Positions 15,627 to 34,217 of a stretch of DNA of 64,000 nt are shown in pieces; position 1 is the first letter of the stretch, and each line of letters opens with the position of its first letter. A model generated the notes under the pieces. It had not been told where the DNA came from. It made no database searches and was given only the letters and a program-made list of their open reading frames with translations. The stretch is taken from the NCBI RefSeq assembly GCF_011799805.1, contig NZ_WXUB01000001.1:1674001-1738000 (forward strand), given 5' to 3'. This DNA is from Maribellus sediminis (lineage in GTDB: Bacteria > Bacteroidota > Bacteroidia > Bacteroidales > Prolixibacteraceae). The position numbers were made by a program, and so were the translations under genes.

Positions 15627-15799
15627 ATTACCATGCTAATCTTTTTTCTCTTTGAATAAACGACTCATAACAAAAACAATTTAGAAATAAGACAGACCAT
15701 ACTGGAGACGGGAATCTATAATTTGATATATTTCTCATAGACCTTTGGAACAGAATGATGTCTGAGCCCACATGGTTATCGAAAATAATCTATTTTAGA

Positions 15800-15862
15800 A
15801 ACAATAGGTAAAAGATTCAGAACGATAAGTTAAAATCCCTAATGATTATTGTTTGACATTTG
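15800..15862 (+). promoter_or_regulatory. Paired 21-bp direct-repeat operator and -7 box, copy 1
   Basis: Half-sites AACAATAGGTAAA at 15800 and AACGATAAGTTAAA at 15821, exactly 21 bp (two helical turns) apart, followed by GACATTTG with its TTTG at 15859-15862, 38 bases after the start of half-site 2. Two other promoters in the window have the same arrangement. Direct half-sites two turns apart next to the core promoter are what AraC-type activators use. The HTCS encoded just upstream is the obvious candidate reader. Confidence 0.72.
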
Positions 15863-15949
15863 CAACAATGAGAGTTCTTTAAAATGTTTTAAATATGGTT
15901 GTTAAATGAACATATGATGGCTAATGCAGGCATTGAGACTAAGATTTTT

Positions 15950-15980
15950 CATTGTTTTGTATTGTGGTATTTTGTAACTT
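15950..15980 (+). promoter_or_regulatory. Conserved leader element, copy 1
   Basis: CATTGTTTTG, nine variable bases, then ATTTTGTAACTT. The same 31-base layout occurs at 27223-27253. It lies ~88 bases after the -7 box of the operator promoter, so it would be within the 5' leader; alternatively it is a second core promoter (TTTG plus ATTTTG). Function not known. Confidence 0.5.
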
Positions 15981-16093
15981 CTTCCTCTGAAATGAAAAAT
16001 GATGTGTGAGAATCTGTGGCTCAAGGCCGATAAACAAGAACAGGTTAACGTATTAGAATATAACACGAAAATTTAAATCTTAATTACCCAACA

Positions 16094-16263
16094 ATGAATA
16101 CAAAAACAAATATTACTGCAACATTCAATATGGTTTATCAGGTATTTTGGAACTTACACAAGATAAGGAACCGGGAACTCATATCTCCAATATTAAGGTT
16201 ATCGAAGAGATCACTGAAAACTTAGAAACTAGCTCAATTATTTATGCAATTTATAAGTCATAA
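16094..16263 (+). pseudogene. Broken small reading frame behind a duplicated promoter
   Basis: An ATG at 16094 follows TTAATTACCCAACAATGAA (16080-16098), the same 19 bases that surround the start of the first amidohydrolase (27370-27388). In the ATG frame translation stops after 43 codons with unlikely composition. The frame two bases on is open to TAA at 16263 and reads like protein (GILELTQDKEPGTHISNIKV, then IEEITENLE), suggesting one indel near 16140 that broke a gene of about 55 codons, or a larger gene already deleted. I do not recognise the peptide. Low confidence that it was ever functional. Confidence 0.35.
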
Positions 16264-16417
16264 TAGTAGGGATTAATTGATGCCTGTTGGCAAATGAATT
16301 AGACAACATTAAACGATTTGATTTTAAAAAATTATAATGGCTTTTCATTGTCTCTCATTAATGCTTGCTTTTAACAATCCACACCTTAATTGAAAACATT
16401 ATTTAATCATCCTGTAA

Positions 16418-19057
16418 ATGTCCATTTTAAAAACCCGCTTCCATAAACCAACGATCACTTCCAATATTATTCCGAGAAATCGGATTGTAGATTTGTTGAA
16501 TCAAAATTCAGAGAAATCTCTGATTTTGGTTTCTGCACCGGCTGGGTATGGTAAATCAACGGCTGTTAGTCAATGGCTTGAATTGCAGGAAAAACCCTAT
16601 GCATGGCTTTCTGTAGATCATATCTTTAATAATTTTACTGTTTTTCTTGAATATTTTGCACTAGCAATCAGTAGCTTTCGTTCTTTGGATGAAAAGAAAA
16701 TTCAAGACTTTGTAGAATCATCTTCGGTTTTAAGCCCGCATGCGATTGCCGAAAAAGTTTGCAATTACCTCAGTGAAAATATGGGACCAGGAATAATGGT
16801 GCTGGATGATTACCATAAAATTCAAAATCCCGACATTCACGAACTTATCAATTATCTGTTGAACTTTTGCCCTATTACGAAGCAGCTTATAGTTATTACG
16901 CGTTTCGACCCTCCTTTAAAATTAAATCAACATCGGTTATACGGAAGGCTTGCAGAGTTGAGAATTGCGGATCTTATCATCGATTCGCAAGAGTTTGAGA
17001 ACCTGATAAAATACAACGAAAGCGAATTATCAGAGAATAGTTCTCTCGTATTGGAAAAGTCAGAAGGCTGGATTTTGGGAATTTCTATGTTGCTTCAAAT
17101 TAATAGTACAGGTAAGCAAAATCTTGAGAATGTTCTGGCAGCTAATATGCTAACAGATATGGACTTTTTGCTTGGAGAGTATTTACCGCAGTTACCTGAA
17201 AGTTTTACCGAACCGCTTCTATTGGCAAGTATTTGTGAGCGCTTTAACGAAGAACTCCTGGAAGGATTGTTCCAAACACACCTTACACAAAAGGTAGATG
17301 TACAGGAATTTATTGCAAAACTAAAGGAATACAATCTTTTTCTTATTGCAGAAGATAATGTGAATGAATGGTTTCGTTTTCACCATTTGTTCAGTAGAGT
17401 ACTTCGTCGGCAGCAAAAAAAACTAACTTCCTTTAATACCGACAATGCCTTGTTATACGTAAGTGAATGGTTTGCCAGCAATGGTTATATCGATGAAGCC
17501 ATTTCATACGTACTTCGAAAAGGAGATTTAGAAACGGCCAGTGCTCTTGTTACCCAACATCGAAGAGAAGTCTTTAACCGGGGACAATGGTGGAGAGTAA
17601 AAGCTTGGCTGGATCAATTACCGGATAATTTGATTAAAACTAAACCTTCTTTATTAATCGCCTATGTTTGGGTACTTGAAAATTATTGGAATCTACCGGA
17701 GACTCATCAAGCACTATTTTTGTTGGGGCATGTAATTAAAAAAGGCGCGAACGATTTAGATATATCGGAATATTACTTCCATTTAAGTTTTCATACATTA
17801 TTCTTTCATTCTTCACCTGACAAAGCGCTTAAATATGCGGAGAAATCGAAAGCGTTGTTCGACGACGGTGAAATGTTGGGAGCCAGGCGAGAAATGGTTA
17901 TGGCGTTTTGCATGCAGATGCTGGGAAAGGGAAAAGAAGCGATAGAAATGCTGGAAGCAACAGAAAAAGCTTATGATCCGAGGGAAGTAATGCATTTGCG
18001 TTCCTATTCTTCAAGGCTCTTTGTTTTGCTTTTATCTGGTGAGTTTGTTGAGGCGAAGAATGTAAGTCAACGTTTTAACTATATCGTCCAAAATTCTTTC
18101 CGTTACCTGGAAGCATGGAATATATATTTGACGGCAAATATTGATTTTCAAAATTTTGATTCTCCCGAAGTTGTTGATTCCTTGCTAAACGCACGTGACT
18201 ATGAGGGAGCGATGGATTGGCGAGCTTATGTGGATTGTTATGCCGGTTTATGTCTTTATTATATTATTTCCAATAATGTTGATGCAGCCTTAGAAACCTT
18301 AAAGAACATGGAAACGAAGCAGCAACAAATTAAGGGAGGGCTTTTTTCCAAAAACTTTATATCTACTCAAATGAGAATAAATTGGCTACTGGGCGAAGAG
18401 CAAAAGGCTCTGGACTGGGCGAATGAAAAGCTGGAATTAGAAATGAATGCAGTGGATCCTTTTGTTACGATCGAGGTTCCGCCATTAACCCGTATTCGGA
18501 TACTGATTACTTTTGGTAACAGCGAACAGTTACAACATGGTCTGAACTTATTAGATTCGTTCGAGAAGTTGGTTCACAGCGTTTACAATTCTTATAATGA
18601 TATTGATATACTGTTGTTAAAGGCTTTAGCCTGGAAACGTCTAAAAGATGAGGATAGGGTAAATACATTTTTGAAGAAAGCATTTGACGTTTACGACATA
18701 CAGCGAATAACCAGACCGTTCAGGGAATTTACGATCCTGGCTCCCAATTTATTCGATGGGGTTGAAAATATCCCTCTAAATCTACAACACATTATTTCTG
18801 CAAAACCCAAAAAAATCCAAAAACTTCAGGTGTTTTCCAAAAACAGAGTCAATGACCATGAGGAACTGACTCGACGTGAGCAGGAAATTGTAAAATTAAT
18901 ATGTAGTGGGCTGCGAAATAAAGAAATTGCCGATCAGTTACACATTTCCACTACTACTGTAAAAAGCCACCTCACAAATATCTACGCAAAACTTAATGTT
19001 AGTAACCGTACATCAATGATACGAATGGTACAGAACATCGGTCAGGATTTTTTTTAA
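16418..19057 (+). CDS. MalT/LAL-type LuxR transcriptional regulator
   Basis: 879 residues. N-terminal P-loop ATPase of the STAND type: Walker A APAGYGKST (residues 40-48), Walker B region GIMVLDDYHKI (~125-135). The middle ~350-780 is TPR-like helical repeat, and the last 65 residues are a LuxR/GerE helix-turn-helix (LTRREQEIVKLICSGLRNKE, then TTTVKSHLTNIYAKL). Length and order match the MalT family of ATP- and ligand-responsive activators. It sits upstream of the small protein and the CoA operon on the same strand, so control of that operon is a sensible guess. Its own transcription may start at the operator promoter at 15.8 kb, which would give a leader of over 500 bases. Confidence 0.92.
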   Translation: MSILKTRFHKPTITSNIIPRNRIVDLLNQNSEKSLILVSAPAGYGKSTAVSQWLELQEKPYAWLSVDHIFNNFTVFLEYFALAISSFRSLDEKKIQDFVESSSVLSPHAIAEKVCNYLSENMGPGIMVLDDYHKIQNPDIHELINYLLNFCPITKQLIVITRFDPPLKLNQHRLYGRLAELRIADLIIDSQEFENLIKYNESELSENSSLVLEKSEGWILGISMLLQINSTGKQNLENVLAANMLTDMDFLLGEYLPQLPESFTEPLLLASICERFNEELLEGLFQTHLTQKVDVQEFIAKLKEYNLFLIAEDNVNEWFRFHHLFSRVLRRQQKKLTSFNTDNALLYVSEWFASNGYIDEAISYVLRKGDLETASALVTQHRREVFNRGQWWRVKAWLDQLPDNLIKTKPSLLIAYVWVLENYWNLPETHQALFLLGHVIKKGANDLDISEYYFHLSFHTLFFHSSPDKALKYAEKSKALFDDGEMLGARREMVMAFCMQMLGKGKEAIEMLEATEKAYDPREVMHLRSYSSRLFVLLLSGEFVEAKNVSQRFNYIVQNSFRYLEAWNIYLTANIDFQNFDSPEVVDSLLNARDYEGAMDWRAYVDCYAGLCLYYIISNNVDAALETLKNMETKQQQIKGGLFSKNFISTQMRINWLLGEEQKALDWANEKLELEMNAVDPFVTIEVPPLTRIRILITFGNSEQLQHGLNLLDSFEKLVHSVYNSYNDIDILLLKALAWKRLKDEDRVNTFLKKAFDVYDIQRITRPFREFTILAPNLFDGVENIPLNLQHIISAKPKKIQKLQVFSKNRVNDHEELTRREQEIVKLICSGLRNKEIADQLHISTTTVKSHLTNIYAKLNVSNRTSMIRMVQNIGQDFF

Positions 19058-19392
19058 TATCGTTATCGCAATTGAAAAGTCAATCCCCTTTTCCTTACAA
19101 AGGCAAGCGCTTATTCAGATTGGCATATTCAGTTGGTAATTGAGCAAGTTTGGTTATGCAAATAAAATAGCCTGAGGTATTGGTAAAATATTATCGGCAA
19201 GGTTATAAGTATCTCCTTTTTTATAGTCGGAGTGTTTTAAGTTGTACATAATCAGTGATTTATGTATTGTTGATGTGCCTTTATAAAAAAATCGCAAATT
19301 TTCAACTTTTTATTCCCCAAAGGCTTAAATCATACCTTTTTACGACTTTGGTATGATGTGCTGTAATACCTTTTTACCGGTACTTTGCCTCC
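19058..19392. other. Intergenic region before the CoA operon
   Basis: 335 bases between the LuxR gene and the small protein gene. The proximal half shows nothing. The distal 60 bases carry a repeat cluster (19331-19387, listed separately) that is probably the regulated promoter of the operon. Confidence 0.5.
19331..19387 (+). promoter_or_regulatory. Repeat-rich promoter region of the CoA operon
   Basis: ATACCTTTTTAC occurs at 19332-19343 and again at 19366-19377 (34 bp apart); each copy is followed within a few bases by ACTTTG. In addition CATACC (19331-19336) and GGTATG (19350-19355) form a 6-bp inverted repeat. TACTTTG at 19381-19387 resembles a -7 box and would place the transcript start almost at the ATG at 19393. 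This looks like an operator for a dimeric or repeat-reading regulator; the LuxR protein encoded upstream is a candidate. Confidence 0.5.
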
Positions 19393-19644
19393 ATGAAACA
19401 AACGATAAAAAATAGTATCAAAAAAGTGTATTCACAGGCATGTGTATATCATATAATACTCCAAGGCAAAATTACTCCAGCCTTGTTGGATTCCATCGAT
19501 GAAATGCAAATCCGTGAAAATGGGAAAGGGGAAATCAACCTGATTGGTTGGTTACCTGATCAATCTGCACTCATTGGACTACTGAATCACCTGAATGAAA
19601 TTCGCTACGGAATTCTTTCAGTTAAAGCACTAATGAATGAATAA
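19393..19644 (+). CDS. Small conserved protein of unknown function (83 aa)
   Basis: 83 residues, no signal peptide or membrane span. The layout (Y-x-I-x-LQGKI near residue 24, then GEINLIGWLPDQSALIGLLN, then GILSVKAL at the end) resembles a family of small proteins, known to me mainly from other phyla, that carry a G-x-L/V-x-DQ-x-AL-x-GLL motif. No biochemical role is known to me. It is 60 bases upstream of the CoA-transferase gene on the same strand and seems to be the first gene of the operon. If the -7 box at 19381 is real the message is nearly leaderless, or translation begins further in. Confidence 0.65.
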   Translation: MKQTIKNSIKKVYSQACVYHIILQGKITPALLDSIDEMQIRENGKGEINLIGWLPDQSALIGLLNHLNEIRYGILSVKALMNE

Positions 19645-19704
19645 CAAAATAGCACAGTAATAATTTTTAAAGTTTAATCAAAATTATAAAAGGAGAACAG
19701 AAAA

Positions 19705-20922
19705 ATGACAAAAGTATTAGAAGGAATCAAAGTAGTTGAAGTTGCCTCAATGGCAGCCGCCCCATCCGCAACAGTAATTCTTGCCGATCTTGGCGCAGAA
19801 GTAATCAAAGTTGAACCGCTTAGTGGTGACATGTGGAGATATGGAAACATGGTAGCCGGTATGCCACCGAGCAAGATTCAGTACACGACCTACATTCAAA
19901 ACCGTACGAAGAAGTCGGTTGCACTTAACCTGAAGAAACCTGAAGCACAAGAAGCGCTGCACAAGCTGGTAGCTGATGCGGATGTTTTTCTTACCAATTC
20001 GCCACGCAAAGTACAACAGGAGCTGAAACACACCTATGATGATATTAAGGCAATTAAGCCAGATGTGGTTTACGCATGGATCAATGGTTTCGGTTTAGAA
20101 GGACCCGACAAAGACGCTCCGGGATTTGATATGACCGCCTGGTATGCACGCTCGGGTATGATGGAAGAATTGCGTCCGAAGGATGGTAGTCCTGTACCAC
20201 TGCCTGTTGGAGGTGGAGACTTAAACACTGCAGTGTCGTTGTTTGGTGCAGTTATGACAGGGCTCTTTCATCGCGAACGCACCGGAAAAGGATCATTTGT
20301 ATCAACATCATTAATGAATATGGGAATATGGGCGAACTCAAGTATGATGCAGGCCGCACTGGTAGGTGCACCACCAATGCAGAAGTTTCATCGCACAGAA
20401 TGGCCAAACCCGGTTAGTGGTGGAGTTTATAAAACCAAGGACGACCGCTACATCATTATCGTTGAGTTAAATCCAAATAATGTGGACAATTTACGAGATG
20501 CATTTGGTGCCGACCACTTAAAAGGCGACGAGCGCTTTGCAACACCTGAATTACGCGCTAAGAACCACCAGGCATTGTTCGACGAAATGGAAAAAATTGT
20601 TGGACAACATAACCTTTCTGAGGTTTCAGAACGCCTTAAAAAGTACCGCGTAAACTTCAGCGTGGTACAAACCACCGAAGAATGCACCCGCGACGAGCAC
20701 ATGATGGCCAACGGCTGCTTCCCTGAAGTTGAAGGCGCAAATGGCATTCGCACTATCGACAGTCCGATCCAAATTTTGGGTGATGGCCTCGAAAAAGTGA
20801 AGCCACAAAATCCGCCGGCTGTCGGTGAACACACTGTATCTCAACTAACAGCTCTGGGATACACCGAGGAAGAACTTAAAGCATTGGCTGAGGCTCATGT
20901 AATCGGTTTGCCCCGCAACTAA
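19705..20922 (+). CDS. CaiB/BaiF family (class III) CoA-transferase
   Basis: 405 residues, the usual length. Family III features: start VLEGIKVVEVASMAAAPSAT, ADLGAEVIKVEPLSGD, KKSVALNLKKPEAQEAL, and the catalytic Asp142 in PGFDMTAWYARSGMM. It should move CoA between a thioester and a free carboxylic acid in the cytoplasm, priming the acid for beta-oxidation-like chemistry. A strong Shine-Dalgarno-like AAAGGAG precedes the ATG, which is unusual for this phylum. It heads the enzyme part of an operon with an acyl-CoA ligase, two hydratase/isomerase-type crotonases and two MaoC proteins, similar in content to carnitine (cai) or bile-acid (bai) side-chain CoA pathways; substrate not determined. 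Confidence 0.93.
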   Translation: MTKVLEGIKVVEVASMAAAPSATVILADLGAEVIKVEPLSGDMWRYGNMVAGMPPSKIQYTTYIQNRTKKSVALNLKKPEAQEALHKLVADADVFLTNSPRKVQQELKHTYDDIKAIKPDVVYAWINGFGLEGPDKDAPGFDMTAWYARSGMMEELRPKDGSPVPLPVGGGDLNTAVSLFGAVMTGLFHRERTGKGSFVSTSLMNMGIWANSSMMQAALVGAPPMQKFHRTEWPNPVSGGVYKTKDDRYIIIVELNPNNVDNLRDAFGADHLKGDERFATPELRAKNHQALFDEMEKIVGQHNLSEVSERLKKYRVNFSVVQTTEECTRDEHMMANGCFPEVEGANGIRTIDSPIQILGDGLEKVKPQNPPAVGEHTVSQLTALGYTEEELKALAEAHVIGLPRN

Positions 20923-21035
20923 TAAAAGTGAGAAATATTTTCGGAGGCGTTTATAGCGCCTCCGAACCAACTGATTATTTAGTAATTAAAACATTTACAA
21001 AAAAGAATTTTAAATTTTTAAAAAAACATAATGTT

Positions 21036-21497
21036 ATGAAAGAAGAAGATAAATTTTACGAAGACTTTGAAATAGGCGAATCTTATATGACTGCCGGCAG
21101 AACCATTACTGAAACTGATATTGTGATCCATGCCATGCATTCGGGCGACTGGCAGCCTCATCATACTAACGAGGAATTCGCCAAGTCGCAACCAATTAAG
21201 CACCGTATTGCACACGGAAACCTGACCTTCTGCGTGAGTACAGGGTTAATTTTTCAGGCAGAAAAACCAAACCCAAACATCATGGCTTATGGTTACAACA
21301 AAATCCGTTATCCCGCTTCTGTTTATGCAGGCGACACCATCAAAACAGAGGTGAAAATCACCGACAAGAAGCCTCATCCAAAGCATAAAACACATGGTTT
21401 GTTAACCCAAACAGAGACAACCACAAACCAGCGGGGAGAAACAGTCGCTTTTGTTGAGCACATACTATATGCAAAAAGGAGAAATCCTGGAGAGTAA
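21036..21497 (+). CDS. MaoC-like acyl-CoA (de)hydratase, copy 1
   Basis: 153 residues from the ATG at 21036; the frame extends upstream to 20928 but that part is not protein-like and the paralogue at 24926 begins at the same MKEE-FYEDFEIGE position. Single hotdog domain with the hydratase-2 type motif HSGDWQPHHTNEEF followed by RIAHGNLT, giving the Asp/His pair used for (R)-specific hydration of enoyl-CoA. About 60 percent identical by eye to the second MaoC gene of the operon, so this is an old duplication. It probably hydrates or dehydrates an acyl-CoA intermediate made by the neighbouring ligase/transferase. Confidence 0.9.
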   Translation: MKEEDKFYEDFEIGESYMTAGRTITETDIVIHAMHSGDWQPHHTNEEFAKSQPIKHRIAHGNLTFCVSTGLIFQAEKPNPNIMAYGYNKIRYPASVYAGDTIKTEVKITDKKPHPKHKTHGLLTQTETTTNQRGETVAFVEHILYAKRRNPGE

Positions 21498-21543
21498 AAA
21501 GAAGAGTAACAATCTAATAGAGTAAAAAAAAGGAAAGAATCTG

Positions 21544-23130
21544 ATGAAAAAGAACGAAAACAAATTTTCTAAACTTGATGCGTTTCGCGACATGGATGTA
21601 ATTTGGCTTCTTGAGCAGTGGGTTGAAAGGCAGCCAGATAAAACCTTTGTTGTTTGGGCTCCGTTCGAGGGGTCTGAGCGTCAATGGAGTTATGCCGAAA
21701 TGGCGGGTTATGCTAAACAATTTGCTTCAGGATTACATGCCCGGGGCGTCAGGGCAGGGGATTTCGTTCTTATTCATTCAGATAATTCTCCTTATTTTCT
21801 AACGGCCTGGTTTGGCTGTGCCTATGTTGGCGCTGTTCCGGTTACAATCAACACCCGTTCTGTAGCCGATAACGTTAAGTATTTTGCTGAAGTTATGGAG
21901 CCTGTTTGCGCCATTGCTCAGCCCGGTTATGCAAAAATGGTACGGGAAGCCTGTGGCGAAGACACTAAGCTAATCATAACCGGTGAACCAATCACCGGTG
22001 ACGAAGTTAAGGGACTGGAATTCGAATCTTTCGCTGATATTTTTTCTAATGATTCCCTTCCAGCATTACCAACAGATCCGGAACGGAACTTTGCCGTACA
22101 ATTCACATCAGGAACTACATCGCGTCCAAAACCTACAGTGTGGACAAATGCCAATGCCCTTTGGGGTGGCAAATCCATGTCAATGAACATGCGGCTAAGG
22201 CGAGAAGATGTCACACTGATTTCTATGCCACTATTTCATGCCAATGCCCAGATCACTTTGCTCACCGCCCTTTGGTCGGGAGGAAGTGTTGTAGTGCATC
22301 CCAAGTTCTCGGCCTCACGGTTCTGGAGTACCTGTGCGAAACATGGTGTAACCTGGGTGTCGATGATTCCTTTTGCTTTTAAAGCCTTGAAAGGAAGACC
22401 CGTGCCGGAACACAAAGTTCGGATAATGATGGGATTGGAACGCTTGCCGGAAGCCGAAAAAGAATTCGGAGTTCAAACCATGGCACTCTGGGGAATGACC
22501 GAAACAGTCGCTTCCAGTATTGTAACTGATCCTGATCATCCGGGGCCAGCCGGAACAATGGGACGACCATCACCACTATATGGCGTAGAAGTCCGTAAGA
22601 AAGATGGCTCTCAGGCCGGACCTGGAGAGGAAGGCCTGCTGTTTATCCACGGAGAAAGAGGAGTATCGGTCTTCAAAGAGTACTATAAACACCCTGAAGA
22701 AACGCAAAAGGCATTTGACGAAAATGGTGCCTTGGACACTGGAGATGTAGTTCGTATTGATGAGAATGGCTGGATGTACTTCGTTAATCGCGACAAAGAT
22801 ATGCTTCGTGTGGGCGGAGAAAATGTGGCCGCACGGGAAATTGAAATTGCTATTAACGATAGTGGTTTGGTGATGGAAAGTGCTGTTGTTGCTCAGAAAC
22901 ACTATATGTTGGGAGACGTACCCGCCGCCTTTATTTCATTAAACGAGGCTGGAAAGGTGCTTACGGAAGAGGAAGTAAAGAACAAGATTATGGCTGTTTG
23001 CAAAGAGGAACTCGCCGATTTCAAAGTACCAAGATCGGTGCACATCGTTAACGATTTTCCTCGTTCAACGCTCGATCGAATAGCAAAGAACAAACTGCGG
23101 GATCAATTACCATGTATTGAATCAGACTAA
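21544..23130 (+). CDS. Acyl-CoA synthetase (AMP-forming), CaiC-like
   Basis: 528 residues. ANL superfamily: P-loop-like FTSGTTSRPKPTVWTN (~180-195), A5-type motif ALWGMTETVASS (~310-322), ALDTGDVVRIDENGWMYFVNR (~398-418), hinge and KVPRSVHIVNDFPRSTLDRIAKNKLR at the end with the catalytic Lys. It activates a carboxylic acid with ATP and CoA. Overall layout resembles crotonobetaine/carnitine-CoA ligase (CaiC) and related acyl ligases more than long-chain FadD, but substrate cannot be assigned. 46 bases after the first MaoC gene; preceded by a purine-rich AAAGGAAAG. Confidence 0.92.
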   Translation: MKKNENKFSKLDAFRDMDVIWLLEQWVERQPDKTFVVWAPFEGSERQWSYAEMAGYAKQFASGLHARGVRAGDFVLIHSDNSPYFLTAWFGCAYVGAVPVTINTRSVADNVKYFAEVMEPVCAIAQPGYAKMVREACGEDTKLIITGEPITGDEVKGLEFESFADIFSNDSLPALPTDPERNFAVQFTSGTTSRPKPTVWTNANALWGGKSMSMNMRLRREDVTLISMPLFHANAQITLLTALWSGGSVVVHPKFSASRFWSTCAKHGVTWVSMIPFAFKALKGRPVPEHKVRIMMGLERLPEAEKEFGVQTMALWGMTETVASSIVTDPDHPGPAGTMGRPSPLYGVEVRKKDGSQAGPGEEGLLFIHGERGVSVFKEYYKHPEETQKAFDENGALDTGDVVRIDENGWMYFVNRDKDMLRVGGENVAAREIEIAINDSGLVMESAVVAQKHYMLGDVPAAFISLNEAGKVLTEEEVKNKIMAVCKEELADFKVPRSVHIVNDFPRSTLDRIAKNKLRDQLPCIESD

Positions 23131-23232
23131 TGGTCATATCAAAATCTTGATTGAACAAAATACACTTGCCAAATAAATAAAAGAGAAGCAAACATAAAAG
23201 TTTATAAATATTAATAGAAGACAGAATATAAA

Positions 23233-24009
23233 ATGAAAGAGTATAAGTATATGAAAACCGAGCGAAAAGGAAACGTTGGAATCGTTACCTTCAATCGCCC
23301 TGAGGCACTAAATGCGCTTAATGAACAAGTTGAAATAGAAGTTACCGATGCTTTAATGGAATTTGATGCCGATGACAGTATTGGCTGTATGATCCTTGCC
23401 GGTGGTGAAAAGGCGTTTTGTGCCGGAGCCGACCTGAAATGGATCGCATCACAGGATTTTGAGAGTGCTTATCGTACCGACCTGGCAGCATATATGGATA
23501 AAGTTGCTGAACTACGCAAACCGGTAATTGCAGCCGTTAAAGGATATGCATTCGGAGGCGGCACTGAAATATCGTTAATGTGTGATATGATTATTGCAGA
23601 TACAACTGCAAAATTTGGCTTGACTGAAGTCACATTAGGTGTTATCCCCGGTGGTGGTGGGCCTGCTCGTTTGGCTGCTGCTGTTGGAAAAGCAAAAGCA
23701 ATGTATTATGTATTGACAGGTAAACCTTTTAGTGCCGAAGAAGCCGAGCGAATTGGTATGATTACAAAGGTTGTGGAAGATGGTAAGCTGATGGATGAAG
23801 CACTTAAGGTTGCAACTACCATTGCCAACAATCCACGATTAGCAGTTTTGGCCGGTAAGGAATCTGTAAACCAACAGGCGGAAACTCCTCTTATTCCTGC
23901 ACTGAAAGTGGCACGTCGACTTTTCCACGGGCTGTTCAGTACATCTGATCAAAAAGAGGGAATGACAGCCTTTGCAGAAAAGCGTAACCCCAATTATCAA
24001 AAATATTAG
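23233..24009 (+). CDS. Enoyl-CoA hydratase/isomerase (crotonase) A
   Basis: 258 residues, standard crotonase length. Oxyanion-hole segments AFCAGADLKW (~61-70) and YAFGGGTEIS (~105-113) are present, and both hydratase glutamates are kept: Glu112 in GGGTE and Glu132 in LTEVTLG. So a true hydratase activity is likely rather than only isomerase. C-terminal EGMTAFAEKRNPNY is typical. Part of the CoA operon, 102 bases after the ligase. Cytoplasmic; would hydrate a 2-enoyl-CoA, comparable in position to CaiD of carnitine pathways. Confidence 0.92.
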   Translation: MKEYKYMKTERKGNVGIVTFNRPEALNALNEQVEIEVTDALMEFDADDSIGCMILAGGEKAFCAGADLKWIASQDFESAYRTDLAAYMDKVAELRKPVIAAVKGYAFGGGTEISLMCDMIIADTTAKFGLTEVTLGVIPGGGGPARLAAAVGKAKAMYYVLTGKPFSAEEAERIGMITKVVEDGKLMDEALKVATTIANNPRLAVLAGKESVNQQAETPLIPALKVARRLFHGLFSTSDQKEGMTAFAEKRNPNYQKY

Positions 24010-24106
24010 AATGCTTAACTACCACAGGAGTAGTTTTCAGAAAATCCATATTTGAAAAGTGGAATAATCGATTGAATAATAAAGTTTAATAAAAAAAGAA
24101 TAAGAA

Positions 24107-24862
24107 ATGAAAAAAGTAATTGTTGAAAAAAAAGGTGGTATAATCTACGTAAAAATTAACCGCCCTGATGTATTGAATGCCTGTGATGGCGATACCTATA
24201 ATGCCATTGCTGATGCATGGGAAGAGCTTGAAAATGATCCCAATTTACGAGTAGGAATTGTAAGTGGTGAAGGTCGTGCATTTTGTGTTGGTACTGATGT
24301 TAAATGGGTGAAGTCGCCCGAGGCCGATGGATACGTAGATCGTTTGTACCCACGCATGTTAAACCTGACCAAGCCCGTGATTGCCGCTGTTCATGGTCAT
24401 TGCAACGGTGGCGGACTGGAACAGGCATTAGCCTGTGATATTAGAGTATCTACCGAAGATGCCCACTTTGGCTCTGGTGAAATTCGATTGGGTTGGATTC
24501 CTGGAGGTTATGGAACTCAACGTTTACCGCGTGTAATTCCTTTGGGTAGTGCACTTGAATTGTTGTACACCGGTGGCCGTGTCGATGCACAGGAAGCTTA
24601 TCGTATAGGTCTTGTAAATCATTTGGTGCCAGCCGATAAATTGATGGAAACCTGCGAAAAAATTGCCGGAGAGATTATTAAAAGCGCTCCGCTTGCTGTG
24701 CAGAAAATGAAGGCTGTGGTTATGCAGGGACTTGATATGCCACTTACACAGGCTGTGAGACTGGAAAAGGAGTATTTTGACTGGCTGATGCGAACCGAAG
24801 ACTCGAAAGAAGGTGCCCTGGCTTTTGCTGAAAAACGCGCTCCAAACTGGAAAGCTAAATAG
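24107..24862 (+). CDS. Enoyl-CoA hydratase/isomerase (crotonase) B
   Basis: 251 residues; same fold as crotonase A but clearly divergent, so the two are unlikely to be redundant. Oxyanion-hole segments AFCVGTDVKW (~58-67) and HCNGGGLEQA (~98-107), with Glu105 and Glu125 in the two catalytic positions (GGGLE and GSGEIRLG). IPGGYGTQRLPRVI follows. Cytoplasmic enoyl-CoA hydratase or related lyase/isomerase in the same operon, between crotonase A and the second MaoC gene. Confidence 0.92.
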   Translation: MKKVIVEKKGGIIYVKINRPDVLNACDGDTYNAIADAWEELENDPNLRVGIVSGEGRAFCVGTDVKWVKSPEADGYVDRLYPRMLNLTKPVIAAVHGHCNGGGLEQALACDIRVSTEDAHFGSGEIRLGWIPGGYGTQRLPRVIPLGSALELLYTGGRVDAQEAYRIGLVNHLVPADKLMETCEKIAGEIIKSAPLAVQKMKAVVMQGLDMPLTQAVRLEKEYFDWLMRTEDSKEGALAFAEKRAPNWKAK

Positions 24863-24925
24863 TACTTTTCTTTTCTACGTTAACCCCCAAGTAAAACAAA
24901 TAGTAATCTAAAAAATTAAAAAATT

Positions 24926-25381
24926 ATGAAAGAAGAAGCGAAATTTTACGAGGACTTTGAGATAGGTGAAACCAAAATGACACCAGCTAGGACGATCACG
25001 GAAACCGATATTGTGATGCATGCTATGCACTCAGGCGACTGGATGCCCCATCATACAGATGCAGAATGGTGTAAAGATCAGCCTTTTAAAAAGCCCATAA
25101 TGCATGGTAATGGAACCTTTAGTATTAGTACTGGTCTTACTTTTCTGGGTGAGAAATTGAATCCACATGCCATGTCGTACGGATATAACAAAATTCGTTA
25201 TCCGAACAATGTGTTCGCAGGTGATACTATAAAGGTTGAAACAAAGGTTATCAGCAAACAAGAGCATCCCAAGCGTCCAACACATGGCTTGGTTACGGAA
25301 GCGAAGACAACACTTAACCAGAAAGGCGAATGTGTGTGCTATGCCGAGCACATTCTTTTTGTGGAAAAGAGGAATCCTTAA
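24926..25381 (+). CDS. MaoC-like acyl-CoA (de)hydratase, copy 2
   Basis: 151 residues, hotdog fold with HSGDWMPHHTDAEW and PIMHGNGT supplying the hydratase-2 Asp/His. Paralogue of the gene at 21036-21497; the region FYEDFEIGE, TITETDIV, HAMHSGDW, YGYNKIRYP and AGDTIKVET is nearly shared. Two MaoC and two crotonase genes in one operon suggest at least two hydration/dehydration steps, or handling of both stereoisomers of the hydroxyacyl-CoA. Confidence 0.9.
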   Translation: MKEEAKFYEDFEIGETKMTPARTITETDIVMHAMHSGDWMPHHTDAEWCKDQPFKKPIMHGNGTFSISTGLTFLGEKLNPHAMSYGYNKIRYPNNVFAGDTIKVETKVISKQEHPKRPTHGLVTEAKTTLNQKGECVCYAEHILFVEKRNP

Positions 25382-25590
25382 GACTGTAGCGCATATGGAT
25401 GCATTCAAATTGAACCAGCTTTAGAAAATTTTGCAGATCAGTCATTTTCGGAGAATTCAATAAAATTTTATGAAAGGCCCCGTGAAATTTTCTAAGCTTT
25501 TTTATTAAAACCTGGTGCAAGAACTGCTTCCAGCGATCAATAACAACATTCGAATTCAAACAATAAAAATGACGAGAAAGGAGAAATACA

Positions 25591-26220
25591 ATGACCCTAA
25601 AGTTTATTGATGTATTTATGATTCTTTTTATCACCATGGGGCCGCTTAAACCTGCCATTGTGTATGTTACATTAACAGCCAAGTCAGATGCTGCTTTCAG
25701 GCGAAAAGTGGCTCTGCGGACTGCAATAACAGCAAGCATTGTGGCAATACTTTTTGTTGTAGCCGGCGAATTTTTGCTGAGTGCCTTCCATGTATCAATT
25801 CCTGCATTAAAAATGGCCGGAGGTTTAATATTACTATTGTATGCCTTAGAAATGATAATTGGCGGTGATAAGAAAGAAGATAGCAGTATCGATTCCGGAC
25901 CGTCAACAAACATTTCGATATACCCGCTGGCTTTGCCTTTAATGGCAACGCCACAGGGTCTTGTAGCGGTTACAACTTTTGCGGCTGCCGACCCAAATAT
26001 GAGTGACACGCTAATGGTTGTTGGAACAATATTGGGCTTAATGGCCTTCAACTTCGTTTTTTTGCTCGGTGCCCATAAAATCCTGAAATTAATAGGCCCT
26101 GCTGCATTAAAAGTGGTGTCTGTTGTTGTGGGATTGCTGCTTGCCGCTTTGGCAATTCAGTTAATGATCTGGGGGATGACTGATCTTGGTGTATTGGAGG
26201 AATTTGTTGCCACGGGGTAA
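25591..26220 (+). CDS. MarC family integral membrane protein
   Basis: 209 residues with about six membrane segments; family hallmarks are the N-terminal DVFMILFITMGPLKPAIVYV and the central MAGGLILLLYALEMI and PLALPLMATPQGL. MarC/UPF0056 proteins are inner-membrane proteins of unsettled function, with transport roles proposed. A good Shine-Dalgarno-like AAAGGAG precedes the ATG. It follows the CoA operon after a 209-base gap and before a large hairpin, so it is probably the last gene of that unit; a transport role for the operon's substrate or product is only a guess. Confidence 0.88.
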   Translation: MTLKFIDVFMILFITMGPLKPAIVYVTLTAKSDAAFRRKVALRTAITASIVAILFVVAGEFLLSAFHVSIPALKMAGGLILLLYALEMIIGGDKKEDSSIDSGPSTNISIYPLALPLMATPQGLVAVTTFAAADPNMSDTLMVVGTILGLMAFNFVFLLGAHKILKLIGPAALKVVSVVVGLLLAALAIQLMIWGMTDLGVLEEFVATG

Positions 26221-26274
26221 CATTTTATCAAAGCATGAGAAAAAAATTTGTAAAACGCTTTAGATAGGAATAAT

Positions 26275-26340
26275 GGAAAACATGGTTTGAAGACTTTCAT
26301 GTGTGTATGGATGGAACTATGAAAGTCTTCCCTGTTTTCC
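26275..26340 (+). terminator. Large two-part hairpin after the MarC gene
   Basis: Inner stem AAGACTTTCAT (26290-26300) with ATGAAAGTCTT (26319-26329), 11 bp; outer stem GGAAAACA (26275-26282) with TGTTTTCC (26333-26340), 8 bp. It lies 54 bases past the MarC stop. The run after it (AATTATTTG) is only weakly T-rich, so it may be a terminator or an mRNA 3'-end stabiliser. Confidence 0.6.
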
Positions 26341-26400
26341 AATTATTTGTACCAAACGATCCGCGTATTCTGAAAACCAAAACCGCGAGAAGCATAATTT

Positions 26401-26463
26401 AACAATAGGTTAAATAAACGGAACAATAGATTAAGTGCCTCCTGTACCGGGCATGTACATTTG
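26401..26463 (+). promoter_or_regulatory. Paired 21-bp direct-repeat operator and -7 box, copy 2
   Basis: Half-sites AACAATAGGTTAA at 26401 and AACAATAGATTAA at 26422, 21 bp apart; a consensus -7 box TACATTTG lies at 26456-26463 with TTTG 38 bases after the start of half-site 2. This is the best core promoter of the three copies. It drives the orphan AraC gene, whose first usable ATG is at 26507, about 37 bases after the expected start of transcription. Confidence 0.78.
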
Positions 26464-26506
26464 TATAACACTAAACAAAAATAAGCACCTAACAATTAAC
26501 AGCGAA

Positions 26507-27085
26507 ATGATAATTCTTAAAAATATGCTGTTAAAGCCGGCTAACTTTTACGTGGTTGTATACAAGGTAAAAACCGATTTTGCTACCTATTTGAAAGTAT
26601 TACAGCTAAAATTAAATGAATTCTTCAACAATTTATTTATGCCTATTAAATGGCGAATGTTAATTCATAAACAAGTTCGGCTTAACAGCCAGGATGAGAA
26701 TGGATTAAAGTATAGTAGTAGCAAAAGCTGGAATGAAATTCGTGAAAAGCATACTGAGGAATTTGTTGTGCTAGTCCGCAAAACCATTATTGAAAATATG
26801 AAAGCAGACGGATTCGGTGTTTGTATGTTGTGTAAAAAAATAGGCATGAGCCGAACTCAATTGCACATTAAACTAAAATTAGTCACCAATAGATCAACTT
26901 CTCATTATATCAGGTTTGTTCGCATACAAAAAGCCACTCAACTTCTTCGTGAAACCAATTTAAATATCACCCAGGTTTCATTGGAAGTTGGAATTGACAG
27001 TCTTCCCTATTTCTCTCGGATTTTTAGAGCCGAAGTTGGCTTAAGTCCGCAGAAATATCGCAAGATATATCGCTTGGAACAATAG
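26507..27085 (+). CDS. Orphan HTCS-type AraC output domain
   Basis: 192 residues from the ATG at 26507; an in-frame GTG at 26435 precedes the predicted transcription start and is rejected. The last ~110 residues are an AraC double helix-turn-helix almost the same as the HTCS C-terminus (shared stretches: MSRTQLH, RSTSHYIRF versus KSTSHFIRF, ITQVSLEVGIDS versus ISQVSLEVGIES, PYFSRIF). The first ~70 residues match nothing certain; part may be what is left of a receiver-to-AraC linker. There is no phosphorylation domain, so it could act constitutively, compete with the HTCS, or be a remnant. It has its own copy of the operator, and its stop codon TAG lies inside the next operator copy. Confidence 0.82.
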   Translation: MIILKNMLLKPANFYVVVYKVKTDFATYLKVLQLKLNEFFNNLFMPIKWRMLIHKQVRLNSQDENGLKYSSSKSWNEIREKHTEEFVVLVRKTIIENMKADGFGVCMLCKKIGMSRTQLHIKLKLVTNRSTSHYIRFVRIQKATQLLRETNLNITQVSLEVGIDSLPYFSRIFRAEVGLSPQKYRKIYRLEQ

Positions 27086-27140
27086 GTTAAATAATCGGAA
27101 CGATAAGTAAAACTCCGCTTTCATCTAATTCGGAGATTTG
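27078..27140 (+). promoter_or_regulatory. Paired 21-bp direct-repeat operator and -7 box, copy 3
   Basis: Half-sites AACAATAGGTTAAA at 27078 and AACGATAAGTAAAA at 27099, 21 bp apart; GAGATTTG follows with TTTG at 27137-27140, again 38 bases after the start of half-site 2. It overlaps the last codons of the orphan AraC gene. This is the likely promoter of the 21-kb hydrolase/porin cluster and implies a ~235-base 5' leader before the first ATG at 27384. Confidence 0.76.
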
Positions 27141-27383: not shown

Positions 27384-28853
27384 ATGAAAAAAACAGCAAT
27401 CTTTATTTTAACAGCAATTGTGCTGGTAGCAATGAGTTTTACAGCTTATTCGCAAGATGAAGAAACGGTTACACTAATTACCAACGTTAATATTTTCGAC
27501 GGAGAAAACGAGAAATTACTGGAAGACTACGATGTTCTTGTAGTTAAAAACCTGATTAAAAAAATCGATAAGGATATCAAAATTGCTAGTTCTTATGAAA
27601 TTGATGTAAAAACCGGTGGTTTAAAAGTGATGCCGGGTGCACATGCCAATGATCTTTCAGTATCCGGAGATCAGACCGTAATGGTGTACGAACCTGAAAA
27701 AGATGTTAAAAAAGAAGTAACGGTAAAAGTTATTGATGGAGGAGGCCGGACTTTAATTCCAGGCTTAATCGATGCCCACTGGCATACAACCTATGCATCA
27801 ACGCCGGCCCAAATTCTTTTACTGAACCAGGGTGATATGCCCGAAGTGGCCATTCTGAGTATGACGGCCGCCGAAGAAACACTGTTACGCGGATTTACTA
27901 CCGTTAGAGATATGGGAGGTAATCCCTTCGCCATTAAAAAACTTATTGATTCCGGAAAATATCCGGGGCATCGTATTGTACCTGCCGGCCCGTTTATGAG
28001 CCCTACTGCCGGCCATGCCGATCATTACGATGTTCCAACAGAAACACCCAGAGACAAACGTTTCCTCAACTATTGGGAACGAAATATGATGTCAATGACT
28101 TCTGACGGAGTTGCTGAAGTTCAGCTACGCACCCGCGATATTTTAAAATACGGTGCTTCTCAAATTAAGATCTGTACCGGTGGGGGTGTATCTTCATTAT
28201 ATGACCCCCTGGATGTTAGTGAATACTCGATTGCCGAAGTAAAAGCTGCTGTGGAAGAAGCCACAAACTACAATACTTATGTGGCCTCACACGTAATGAC
28301 CGATAAAGGAGTTCGCACCTCGGTAGAAGCCGGAGTGATGTCTATTGAGCATGGTTTTTTTGCTACAAAAGAAACCTTGGAATTGATGAAAGAAAAAGAT
28401 GCCTGGTTAAGTCCTCAGCCCATGAAAGAAGAAGATATGGTATGGGCTAACCCAATAAGTGCTGCCAAATACAAACAAGTAACTGATGCTGTAGCGGCGT
28501 TGTACCCAATGGCAAAAGAAGTGGGTGTTAACCTCGCTTTTGGAACCGACCAACTCATGGATGCCTCAAAAGCACATCAGCAGAGCGATTATTTGGTACG
28601 ATTAGGAGAATGGTTTACACCCTATGAGACATTGAAAATGGCAACCTCTGAAAATGCTCGCTTACTGCAGTTATCAGGTCCCAGACTTCCATATCAGGAA
28701 GGCCCACTAGGCGTGATTAAAGAAGGAGCTTATGCCGATCTAATTATTGTTGATGGCAATCCACTTGAAGACCTTGAATTGGTAGGAGATCCGGGTAAAA
28801 ACTTCGTGCTGATCATGAAGGATGGAAAGGTATATAAGAATACATTGAAATAA
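27384..28853 (+). CDS. Exported metal-dependent amidohydrolase, copy 1
   Basis: 489 residues; signal peptide ending near AYSQ, so periplasmic or secreted. Amidohydrolase superfamily with a full set of metal ligands: His132-x-His134 in IDAHWH, Lys262 in QIKICTGGG (the position of the bridging, usually carboxylated Lys), His303 in ASHVMTD, His323 in SIEHGFF and Asp389 in FGTD. C-terminal urease-like beta sandwich with SENARLLQLSGPRLPY and AYADLIIVDGNPLEDL. The closest relatives by eye are imidazolonepropionase-like and Xaa-Pro/Xaa-Arg dipeptidase-type enzymes; ochratoxinase-type amidases have a similar plan. It should cleave an amide bond. First gene of a 21-kb same-strand cluster and first of three tandem paralogues. 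Confidence 0.9.
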   Translation: MKKTAIFILTAIVLVAMSFTAYSQDEETVTLITNVNIFDGENEKLLEDYDVLVVKNLIKKIDKDIKIASSYEIDVKTGGLKVMPGAHANDLSVSGDQTVMVYEPEKDVKKEVTVKVIDGGGRTLIPGLIDAHWHTTYASTPAQILLLNQGDMPEVAILSMTAAEETLLRGFTTVRDMGGNPFAIKKLIDSGKYPGHRIVPAGPFMSPTAGHADHYDVPTETPRDKRFLNYWERNMMSMTSDGVAEVQLRTRDILKYGASQIKICTGGGVSSLYDPLDVSEYSIAEVKAAVEEATNYNTYVASHVMTDKGVRTSVEAGVMSIEHGFFATKETLELMKEKDAWLSPQPMKEEDMVWANPISAAKYKQVTDAVAALYPMAKEVGVNLAFGTDQLMDASKAHQQSDYLVRLGEWFTPYETLKMATSENARLLQLSGPRLPYQEGPLGVIKEGAYADLIIVDGNPLEDLELVGDPGKNFVLIMKDGKVYKNTLK

Positions 28854-28876
28854 TCGAATTAATAAATCAAAATGTT

Positions 28877-30343
28877 ATGAAAAAGCTAAAAAGTATGTTA
28901 ACTGTTGTTATCCTGTTTTTTGCAACAGGTTTTTTAGCAAATGCACAGAATGAAGAAGTAACCTTAATTACCAACGTCAATATTTTTGATGGTGTAAACG
29001 AACAACTACTGGAAGGTTATGATGTTTTGGTGGTGAAAAACCTGATTAAAAAAATCGACAAAGACATCAAAATTGCCAAAAATTATGAGATTGATGTAAA
29101 AACCGGTGGATACAAAGCCATGACCGGAGGATACCTTACTGATCTCTCGCCCTATGGAGAGAAAAATGCTGTAATGGTTTACGAACCCGAAAAGAATGTG
29201 ACAATACAGGTATCGGTGAATGTTATCGATGGAGAAGGCCGCACTTTAATCCCAGGCTTAATCGATGCCCACTGGCACATGGCTTTGGCGGAACTGCCAA
29301 TGAGTTCAATAATGACAGGTGACGCATTTGAGGTGGGAATTCGAATGTCCAAGGCTGCTCCTCATACATTACTGCGAGGATTTACTACTGTTAGAGACAT
29401 GGGTGGCAATACATTTAGTCTCAAAAAACTAATCGATGCCGGAGTGGTTGAAGGACCGCGTATACTTCCTGCCGGACCAATGATAAGCCAAACAGGAGGG
29501 CACTTCGACTATCGTTTGCCTAATCAAGTACCTAATAGGTCGGGTCTAATAGATTACTGGGAACGAGTGGCGATTAACGCAGTAGCTGATGGTACCACCG
29601 AAGTTCGGAAGCGGGCTCGCGAAGCATTTATGTTGGGTGCAACCCAGGTTAAAATTGCCGGCGGTGGTGGAGTTGCTTCCAGCTATGACCCAATAGATGT
29701 GCGCCAGTATTCGCTTGAAGAAATGAAAGCTGTTGTTGATGTTGCTAACAGTTACAATAGCTATGTAGGTGCGCACATCTTTACAGATGATGCAGTTCAA
29801 ACCGCAGTAAAAGCAGGAATTAAAAGTATTGAACATGGTATGCTCATTGGTCGGGAAACCATGCAGATGATGAAGGATAACGATGTTTGGTTGAGTATCC
29901 AACCTATATTAAACGATGAAGACGCAGAAACGTTTCCAAATCCTGAGTCGAACAAAAAGTTCGTAGAAGTAACAAAAGGAACCGAAACAGTATATCGTTT
30001 AGCCAAAGAAATGGGCGTAAAAATGGCCTTTGGAACGGATCTTTTTATGAGTGCAGAGGCTACTGCCAAGCAGGGTAAGTTACTATCCAAGCTCGATCGT
30101 TGGTTTACTCCTTATGAGGCGCTGAAAATGGCAACATCAGAGAATGCCGAACTGATGGAGTTATCTGGTCCGAGACATCCGTACAAGGAAGGTCCTTTGG
30201 GTGAAATAACAGAAGGCGCTTATGCCGACTTAATTATCGTAGATGGAAATCCACTGGAAGATTTGAGTTTAGTGGCCGATCCGGAAAAGAACTTTGTGGT
30301 AATTATGAAGGATGGCAAGGTATATAAGAACACTCTGAAATAA
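28877..30343 (+). CDS. Exported metal-dependent amidohydrolase, copy 2
   Basis: 488 residues, signal peptide ending at ANAQ. Same fold and ligand set as copy 1: IDAHWHMALAE, QVKIAGGGG, GAHIFTD, SIEHGML and FGTDLFMS. The catalytic half diverges most among the three, with a different segment after the first HxH (ELPMSSIMTGDAFEVG), suggesting a different substrate pocket. It follows copy 1 after 23 bases; that spacer is nearly the same as the one before copy 3. Confidence 0.9.
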   Translation: MKKLKSMLTVVILFFATGFLANAQNEEVTLITNVNIFDGVNEQLLEGYDVLVVKNLIKKIDKDIKIAKNYEIDVKTGGYKAMTGGYLTDLSPYGEKNAVMVYEPEKNVTIQVSVNVIDGEGRTLIPGLIDAHWHMALAELPMSSIMTGDAFEVGIRMSKAAPHTLLRGFTTVRDMGGNTFSLKKLIDAGVVEGPRILPAGPMISQTGGHFDYRLPNQVPNRSGLIDYWERVAINAVADGTTEVRKRAREAFMLGATQVKIAGGGGVASSYDPIDVRQYSLEEMKAVVDVANSYNSYVGAHIFTDDAVQTAVKAGIKSIEHGMLIGRETMQMMKDNDVWLSIQPILNDEDAETFPNPESNKKFVEVTKGTETVYRLAKEMGVKMAFGTDLFMSAEATAKQGKLLSKLDRWFTPYEALKMATSENAELMELSGPRHPYKEGPLGEITEGAYADLIIVDGNPLEDLSLVADPEKNFVVIMKDGKVYKNTLK

Positions 30344-30366
30344 TCAAACTTAAAAATCAAAATGTT

Positions 30367-31833: not shown

Positions 31834-31875
31834 GATTTTGATTGATAGTTAATTACATCTGTTAATTATTAGGAT

Positions 31876-33285: not shown

Positions 33286-33305
33286 TACTCTAAAAACACG
33301 AATCT

Positions 33306-34217
33306 ATGAAAAAACTTTACACGATATCACTGCTGCTGTGCATGCAACTTTGCATATTTAGCTTATCTACAAATGCACAAGAAGATGAATCGGTACCTAA
33401 AAGTGAAGCCGAAATCGCGAAAGAGTTATCTAATCCGAATACAACGCTTGGAACCATGGCTTTTCCCATCGATTATATTCATTACAATGGTGATTTGCCT
33501 GGTGCTTCAAGCCAAAACGGATTTTTGCTCAATTTTCAACCCAGTTTACCTATTCCTTTATCCGAAGGGGTGAATTTATTTGTGCGACCTTTAATTCCAA
33601 TCTATTTAAGCCAACCGGTATTTGGTGATAATGGTTTCGAGAATAAAGGAGTTAACTTAGGAAATATTAGCGCCGATGTTGCGGTTGGAAAAACGTGGCC
33701 TTCAAAAACTATTACCATTGTTGGCGTATTTGGTGGGTTTCCTACCGCCACGAACAAACAATTGCGTTCGAAATTTACAACAGTTGGCCCTGAGTTTATG
33801 GTGGCACAGATGTTTAACTGGGGGGTTTTGGGTGTCATGTTCAACCATGCCTGGAGCGTAAATAGTTACACTCCTGAAGATGACGTAGTCCTTGCAGCAA
33901 CTCCAGATCAATTCTGGATTTCAACTGCCAATAAGCAAACGGCAAGTGTTACAGCTGGACAATATTTTTATGTTGTTAATTTAAAAAATGCCTGGCAAAT
34001 TACCGGGCAACCGACTTTTGCCTATAATCATAAAGCAGAAAAAGGAAGCCGCTTTACATTTCCAGTTGGAACGGGTGTTAATAAAGTGACCCGATTTGGA
34101 AAATTACCTGTAAAACTTAGTGTTCAGTACTGGTACTACCTGGCGAGACCAGATGCTTTTGGCCCGCAACACCAGGTTCGTGTGCAAATTGCACCGGTTA
34201 TTCCTTTGCCTTGGTAA
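33306..34217 (+). CDS. Outer-membrane transporter-like barrel (MetA phenol-pathway type)
   Basis: 303 residues, signal peptide ending near TNAQ. Repeated amphipathic strands (SEGVNLFVRPLIPIYLS, NISADVAVGKTWPSKTITIV, VLGVMFNHAWSV) and the C-terminal VRVQIAPVIPLPW fit the family annotated as MetA-pathway of phenol degradation transporter, thought to be outer-membrane channels for small hydrophobic or aromatic compounds. 20 bases after the serine hydrolase. Function inferred from family only. Confidence 0.72.
   Translation: MKKLYTISLLLCMQLCIFSLSTNAQEDESVPKSEAEIAKELSNPNTTLGTMAFPIDYIHYNGDLPGASSQNGFLLNFQPSLPIPLSEGVNLFVRPLIPIYLSQPVFGDNGFENKGVNLGNISADVAVGKTWPSKTITIVGVFGGFPTATNKQLRSKFTTVGPEFMVAQMFNWGVLGVMFNHAWSVNSYTPEDDVVLAATPDQFWISTANKQTASVTAGQYFYVVNLKNAWQITGQPTFAYNHKAEKGSRFTFPVGTGVNKVTRFGKLPVKLSVQYWYYLARPDAFGPQHQVRVQIAPVIPLPW

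Follow-up and report, generated by a model that had tools for sequence, protein, structure and literature searches.

A 64,000-nucleotide stretch of the genome of Maribellus sediminis (5,595,594 bases in 13 contigs), located at C5:1674001-1738000 and referred to throughout as the window, carries three promoters of a common design in which two direct half-sites precede a TTTG box. The regulators in question are a hybrid two-component regulator (HTCS), which unites a sensor region, HisKA and HATPase domains, a receiver and a C-terminal AraC-type DNA-binding domain (DBD) in a single chain, and a short AraC-type protein termed the orphan. Promoter 1 lies downstream of the HTCS gene, promoter 2 upstream of the orphan gene and promoter 3 at the 3' end of the latter, ahead of a cluster of hydrolase and porin genes (Table 1). 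We consider it quite probable that all three sites serve a single HTCS lineage as activator operators, which is the best explanation of the locus as a whole.

Table 1 Features of the locus, in window positions; the second species is Draconibacterium aestuarii
Feature	Position	Strand	Description
HTCS, 1455 aa	11259..15626	+	Pfam: Y_Y_Y, HisKA, HATPase_c, receiver, AraC-type DBD; proposed regulator of the three sites
Relic 1, decayed AraC DBD 3' end	15673..15784	+	Closest to orphan tail; DNA alignment with orphan end, 0/500 shuffles
Operator, promoter 1	15800..15833	+	Half-sites AACAATAGGTAAA / AACGATAAGTTAA, starts 15800/15821, 21 bp apart; conserved in D. aestuarii
-7 box, promoter 1	15855..15862	+	GACATTTG; TTTG starts 38 bases past half-site 2 start
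Decayed reading frame behind promoter 1	16094..16276	+	Lacks a long open frame in both species; leader end and start codon similar to those of amidohydrolase gene at 27384
MalT-like LuxR-family regulator gene	16418..19057	+	NCBIfam MalT model, below cut-off; possible promoter 1 target
Relic 2, decayed DBD 3' end	26283..26391	+	Closest to HTCS tail; DNA scores 25-30 to HTCS ends, 0/500 shuffles, both species
Operator, promoter 2	26401..26434	+	Half-sites AACAATAGGTTAA / AACAATAGATTAA, starts 26401/26422, 21 bp apart
-7 box, promoter 2	26456..26463	+	TACATTTG; matches TAnnTTTG
Orphan, 192 aa	26507..27085	+	AraC DBD behind putative receiver remnant, no phospho-acceptor Asp; 78% identical in D. 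aestuarii
Operator, promoter 3	27078..27111	+	Half-sites AACAATAGGTTAA / AACGATAAGTAAA, starts 27078/27099, 21 bp apart; orphan stop codon within half-site 1
-7 box, promoter 3	27133..27140	+	GAGATTTG
Target cluster	27384..48930	+	Proposed target; extent as an operon predicted

Three operators of one geometry

The pair starts, the 21-bp spacing and the 38-base distance from the start of half-site 2 to the TTTG had been given in a preliminary description of the window and were recovered at 3/3 promoters. Its statement that all six half-sites fit one pattern needs correction: five match AACRATARGTWAA, and the one at 26422, with A at position 9, is one base off. In a scan of both window strands that covered all spacings between 13 and 39 and allowed four mismatches in total, a spacing of 21 gave three pairs, and the sole other match (spacing 32, at 26390) overlaps site 2. 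A third half-site in register upstream of the pairs was not found within the limits of the scan made for it. According to the available part of the published account (PMC7366714), promoters of the Bacteroidetes primary sigma factor carry TAnnTTTG at -7 and TTTG near -33. Similarly, the window promoters show xAnnTTTG at the fixed place in all three cases, with a full match to TAnnTTTG at promoter 2 only. Judged by sequence, the operator is of a known kind, the published direct-repeat design of HTCSs, and the putative -7 box resembles that of the Bacteroidetes consensus.

A chance origin of the sites was rejected on the scans of the window, of the genome and of 394 further genomes, together with shuffling. 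With position 9 left free and up to three mismatches allowed, the M. sediminis genome contains six places, namely the three of the window with none and others with 2, 3 and 3 mismatches, none of which has TTTG at 38 or 39 behind it; the reversed pattern gave one place. The search for many equally good pairs, proposed earlier as a possible refutation, thus does not refute the reading, the three window pairs being the only exact ones in the genome. No pair with at most one mismatch occurs in 394 other Bacteroidota genomes, leaving one genome of 395, and a TTTG distance common to all three promoters arose in 0/20,000 shuffles of the stretches behind half-site 2. The sites stand far above what chance would give. 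Relaxing the pattern to 1–2 mismatches in relatives gave 27 places in 18 of 61 genomes (M. sediminis included), of which six are the exact pairs of M. sediminis and of genome G007; such matches look like background, the reversed control giving 24 places.

All three sites are kept in D. aestuarii. The half-sites differ between the two species at 3/78 bases and not at all at promoter 2, compared with 27/77 aligned columns between half-site 2 and the TTTG (gapped alignment, Fisher p 4e-7; 33/72 when counted without gaps).

The HTCS as probable regulator of the sites

An exact scan for the pattern over a collection of 84,980 species (contigs of at least 3 kb) returned 11 stretches, of which two belong to D. 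aestuarii, three lie beside an HTCS gene of the same DBD subfamily and six have no such domain in the 6–8 kb covered; among these six, TTTG stands at 38 or 39 in none. The three HTCS-flanked lineages are Algoriphagus lutimaris (L064), Mangrovimonas sp. ST2L15 (L069) and an uncultured Bacteroidetes (L072). The site abuts the end of the HTCS gene in the first two, and two sites lie ~1 kb and ~5 kb behind the HTCS tail, itself cut by the contig end, in the third, so that the operators lie near HTCS genes in other genomes too. The recognition helices of these HTCSs are similar to those of the window HTCS; the motifs RTQLH and YFSRI are common to them, the window HTCS and the orphan, and are absent from 9/9 other DBDs taken from 40 further HTH_18 matches in the M. 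sediminis genome. In Mangrovimonas, an HTCS 73% identical to that of the window immediately precedes the operator, which is followed by a short version of the operon; this operator (L069 and L078/L079) consists of four tandem half-sites 20, 21 and 21 bp apart with TTTG at +38.

Starting from the protein, a search with the DBD profile identified five loci besides those of M. sediminis, with E values of 1e-38 or better, in 3 of 395 genomes of the class (M. sediminis included). The best of these DBDs (L091, 157 bits) has a pair 110 bp behind the stop codon of its gene, with TTTG at +38, half-site 2 exact and three mismatches in half-site 1; a total below five mismatches was reached in 0/100 shuffles. 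The same profile, which included the window HTCS and not the orphan, gives 207 bits for the HTCS and 154 for the orphan, against 44 and 12 for the other two of the four HTH_18 proteins in the window, and the earlier count of only two matching AraC domains is therefore correct in substance, if not for the fold at large. Since sites found by DNA pattern lie beside HTCS genes with similar helices in three other lineages and the best DBD found by protein has a matching site, the HTCS as regulator of the sites is well supported. This part of the original assignment to the two proteins stands firmer than the other, the orphan being assigned to the sites by homology only.

Several observations weigh against this reading. 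Six of the nine stretches outside Draconibacterium have no such DBD in the 6–8 kb around them, and the other four loci found by protein, with more divergent helices, show no pair within six mismatches. The profile was also built from the site-bearing sequences of the DNA scan, whose high scores are partly by construction, and the control for the L091 site consisted of just 100 mononucleotide shuffles. The distance of 38 bases, described at first as rigid, holds at 3/3 window promoters and is relaxed elsewhere: one D. aestuarii promoter and both uncultured-Bacteroidetes sites have TTTG at 39, two of the three Algoriphagus pairs have it at neither distance, and the seven sites beside such DBDs outside Draconibacterium (three of them with mismatches) have it at 38 in three cases, at 39 in two and at neither in two. 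Unlike the consensus (PMC7366714), promoters 1 and 3 have G instead of T as the first base of the box, and inspection by eye revealed no clear -33 TTTG at the promoters, an absence that would be expected if an activator stands in for it. Finally, promoters 1 and 3 are duplicates of each other, and the geometry they share cannot be counted as independent evidence.

In the sensor part of the HTCS, where a periplasmic sensor of COG3292 type would be expected, Pfam models matched only Y_Y_Y (E 0.001). The ratio of nonsynonymous to synonymous divergence (dN/dS) of the HTCS relative to D. aestuarii is 0.15. Its synonymous divergence (dS) is 0.29 in the sensor part, ~1.0 in the kinase–receiver part and 1.2 in the DBD, and 0.1–0.2 in two genes of the cluster; the jumps along the gene look as if parts had been exchanged by recombination. 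A search for the HTCS in the flavobacterial family, with two candidates scored per genome, found it in 1/349 genomes, Mangrovimonas itself, and this patchy distribution together with the high identity suggests horizontal spread.

The orphan, the relics and a proposed mechanism

The orphan is 43% identical to the HTCS over 185 residues, and in the family search the HTCS DBD, at 143 bits, is its best other match in the M. sediminis genome, the next reaching 76 bits. No receiver was recognised in it by Pfam. When the segment start is chosen by us, its first 80 residues are collinear with the C-terminal half of the HTCS receiver (two species, 0 and 2 of 3000 shuffles); free local alignment is weak (80 and 162 of 2000 shuffles), which counts against a receiver remnant. 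Asn occupies the position of the phospho-acceptor Asp and the SHIP motif, carried by the HTCS receiver, is lost. In HTCS response regulators, as described in the available part of PMC11253607, the receiver keeps the DBD inactive via S/CHIP-DK contacts. The window HTCS shares the architecture of that autoinhibited system, SHIP motif included, whereas the orphan differs from those regulators in lacking both the motif and the phospho-acceptor. Having no receiver partner for the S/CHIP-DK contacts, it should by analogy be free of this inhibition.

Immediately before each site stands the DNA-binding end of the regulator, either as a copy or as a decayed relic. Relic 1 matches the orphan tail with tblastn E values of 1e-8 in the window and 5e-11 in D. 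aestuarii, and relic 2 gives 2.6e-4 in the window, for a subject set of seven short stretches. Of the 24 relic comparisons, 11 gave 0/500 shuffles. Just as the orphan stop codon lies within a half-site at promoter 3, that of the HTCS overlaps a half-site in Algoriphagus and in Mangrovimonas (here the first of the four). The cassettes of promoters 1 and 3 can be aligned over ~430 bp, from the regulator tail to the start codon of the next gene, with the best agreement at the tail, the operator and the leader end. On the unfavourable side, 13 of the 24 comparisons fell short of 0/500, one of 40 control comparisons reached 0/300 and relic 2 has no same-strand tblastn match in D. aestuarii. No convincing relic was found before the second and third Algoriphagus sites, the two uncultured-Bacteroidetes sites or the L091 site (one comparison gave 2/300). 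A perfect 12-bp inverted repeat (26289-26330) lies within relic 2, between the MarC gene and promoter 2.

The sites, their geometry and conservation, their co-occurrence with the DBD, the relics and the truncation of the orphan are seen in the sequence itself, whereas binding, activation, the direction of control, the history and the role of the orphan are deduced from it. The following mechanism is proposed. The two AraC-type DBDs of a phosphorylated HTCS dimer would dock side by side on the half-sites, on the same face of the DNA and two helical turns apart. Half-site 2 would overlie the -33 region or lie immediately upstream of it, and activation would be class-II-like, the RNA polymerase that carries the Bacteroidetes primary sigma factor being set on the -7 box at a nearly fixed distance. 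The HTCS would thereby control the amidohydrolase/porin cluster from promoter 3, the orphan from promoter 2 and perhaps the MalT-like gene from promoter 1. The orphan is a truncated second HTCS that has kept its DNA-reading helices and, with no phospho-acceptor Asp, would not be switchable by phosphorylation; most likely it recognises these sites as well and, since its own expression starts from one of them, would amplify or prolong the response.

As for their history, the sites probably have a common origin. The regulator gene would have carried an operator at its 3' end that was duplicated with that tail, the coding part later decaying at promoters 1 and 2. Tandem HTCS copies, each with an operator at its stop codon, may have existed, one of which shed its sensor and kinase to become the orphan behind the operator of the preceding copy, and later insertions would have separated the pieces. 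Sites behind regulator tails suggest a way for a bacterium to gain promoters under one regulator. More tentatively, and with the balance of our judgement still somewhat against it, operators in the tail of their own regulator could be portable cassettes, copied with the gene end, after which the coding part decays, the site is selected and the regulon grows by shedding broken regulator copies; one truncated copy, itself expressed from such a cassette, would then serve as a phosphorylation-blind DBD that latches or amplifies the HTCS signal for a catabolic cluster of amide/peptide type rather than for glycans.

The main alternative to the amplifying role is that the orphan is a brake, a DBD that without a working receiver can neither pair nor recruit polymerase and competes with the HTCS in negative feedback. 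The lack of a recognised receiver and the remnant-like N-terminus would suit it, and promoter 2 would place the orphan under the same control, as a feedback loop requires. AraC-type DBDs such as MarA and SoxS, however, are able to activate alone, and brake and amplifier fit the data alike; we regard the brake as possible and somewhat unlikely. Slightly more doubtful is that the HTCS uses the sites while the orphan is a dying fragment without function. In its favour are the truncation with a receiver remnant, the full decay of two sister tails and the less constrained N-terminal part, with dN/dS of 0.39 between the two species and AlphaFold2 confidence (pLDDT) mostly below 50 (block means of 50 or less before the DBD). 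The DBD, on the other hand, is predicted confidently (block means 81–96, residues 81 to 190) and is under stronger constraint (dN/dS 0.21), neither species has lost the open frame, and the half-sites of promoter 2 are unchanged.

We regard as very unlikely that the orphan itself, as a self-activating one-component AraC protein, regulates the three sites while the HTCS acts elsewhere. Its position between two sites, the DNA-reading helices that it shares with the HTCS and its conservation (78% identity) would permit such a role. The Mangrovimonas sites, however, lie beside an HTCS with no second DBD of the class in 39 kb (202 bits, next 84), only the HTCS-type DBD scores highly in the Algoriphagus and uncultured-Bacteroidetes stretches, and the orphan has no sensor domain recognised by Pfam; the Mangrovimonas locus and the profile scores make it unlikely as sole regulator. 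That the likeness of the sites is a mere residue of duplication without function, as the paired cassettes of promoters 1 and 3 might suggest, is scarcely credible, given that the half-sites are nearly unchanged while the neighbouring promoter DNA has diverged and that homologous HTCS genes of other lineages have the same site, with the same spacing, beside them.

The proposed control by the HTCS through direct half-sites has a classical parallel. E. coli AraC binds the I1-I2 half-sites at araBAD, which are direct and 21 bp apart, with the promoter-proximal one against the upstream promoter element. The window half-sites resemble I1-I2 in orientation, in spacing and in the placement of the promoter-proximal half-site at the upstream element, and differ in that the proposed regulator is a membrane-bound HTCS and the promoter is of the Bacteroidetes type. 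A further parallel is provided by the predicted HTCS operators of 16 Bacteroides thetaiotaomicron regulons. As given in the available part of the report (PMC3878776), these are direct repeats of two conserved sites, on average 21 bp apart, and are interpreted as places for two monomers bound to one face of the DNA at two turns' distance; related DBDs have related motifs. The window sites are likewise direct repeats at 21 bp. The search for those regulons concerned HTCS genes that lie together with susC/susD-like genes; in contrast, there is no SusC/SusD Pfam match among the 19 proteins of the window cluster. The -7 distance rule, the DBD-only paralogue and the regulator-tail relic are features of the window that were not met in that part of the report.

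The literature search, which covered titles and abstract openings with subscription papers mostly outside it, yielded no report of a receiver-less HTCS paralogue, of HTCS-controlled amidohydrolases or of duplication of an operator with a regulator tail. Relative to that literature, four features would be new: a target cluster that lacks SusC/SusD, a paralogue that has no receiver and stands under the same operator, relics of the regulator tail, and a distance rule that spans lineages. The locus would offer a clean and testable DBD-to-site pairing for an HTCS subfamily whose target cluster is of this kind, and the distance from half-site 2 to the -7 box, mostly 38–39 bp, could be used to predict HTCS promoters. 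Tail duplications of a regulator gene with operators at its 3' end could seed new promoters, and a receiver-less paralogue behind its own copy of the operator would be a natural test of a free HTCS DBD in the cell.

Proposed target cluster and neighbouring genes

The cluster encodes three amidohydrolases in tandem (27384-31833; joined in D. aestuarii by a fourth, of 446 aa, lying among them), a hydrolase of the beta-lactamase fold, DcaP and OprB porins, a further amidohydrolase, an ABC/MacB-type transporter, two DUF3299 proteins, Omp85-type proteins (one above and one below the Pfam cut-off) and proteins with no Pfam match. The Mangrovimonas operon comprises an M20 peptidase, a pair of amidohydrolases that share 46 and 52% identity with one of the window, a hydrolase of the beta-lactamase fold (28%), a DcaP porin (38%) and a 304-aa protein, and its six proteins, too, have no SusC/SusD match. 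This last protein is 73% identical to a 303-aa window protein (33306-34217) with no Pfam match, for which dN/dS relative to D. aestuarii is 0.03 and a PDB search gave one match only (E 0.25).

Behind promoter 1, neither species has an intact reading frame at 16094, yet the operator is kept. Comparison of this frame, as DNA and in translation, with the window, D. aestuarii, Mangrovimonas, L064 and L080 showed little beyond the shared leader and start region. No xAnnTTTG box occurs at 15863-16420, and the terminator scan found no plus-strand terminator between 15860 and 16418. Because nothing of either kind intervenes and the operator has outlasted the frame, promoter 1 may serve the MalT-like gene at 16418. 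The regulon was originally drawn as the orphan, the hydrolase/porin cluster and a decayed gene, the last of which is perhaps not what promoter 1 is kept for. The MalT-like gene is followed by CoA-transferase, hydratase and CoA-ligase genes (19705-25381). When three proteins were submitted to PADLOC, only the LuxR-type end of the MalT-like protein was matched, by two CARF models.

A separate minus-strand locus (1620-9536) with TonB-plug and SusD genes (3091-7650) lies beside an AraC protein (9810-10937) and has none of the operator sites. Within the cluster, a 652-aa protein with no Pfam match (41397-43355) is found in 1/393 genomes of the order, that of M. sediminis itself, and D. aestuarii, evidently outside the 393-genome set, has a 652-aa frame at the matching place.

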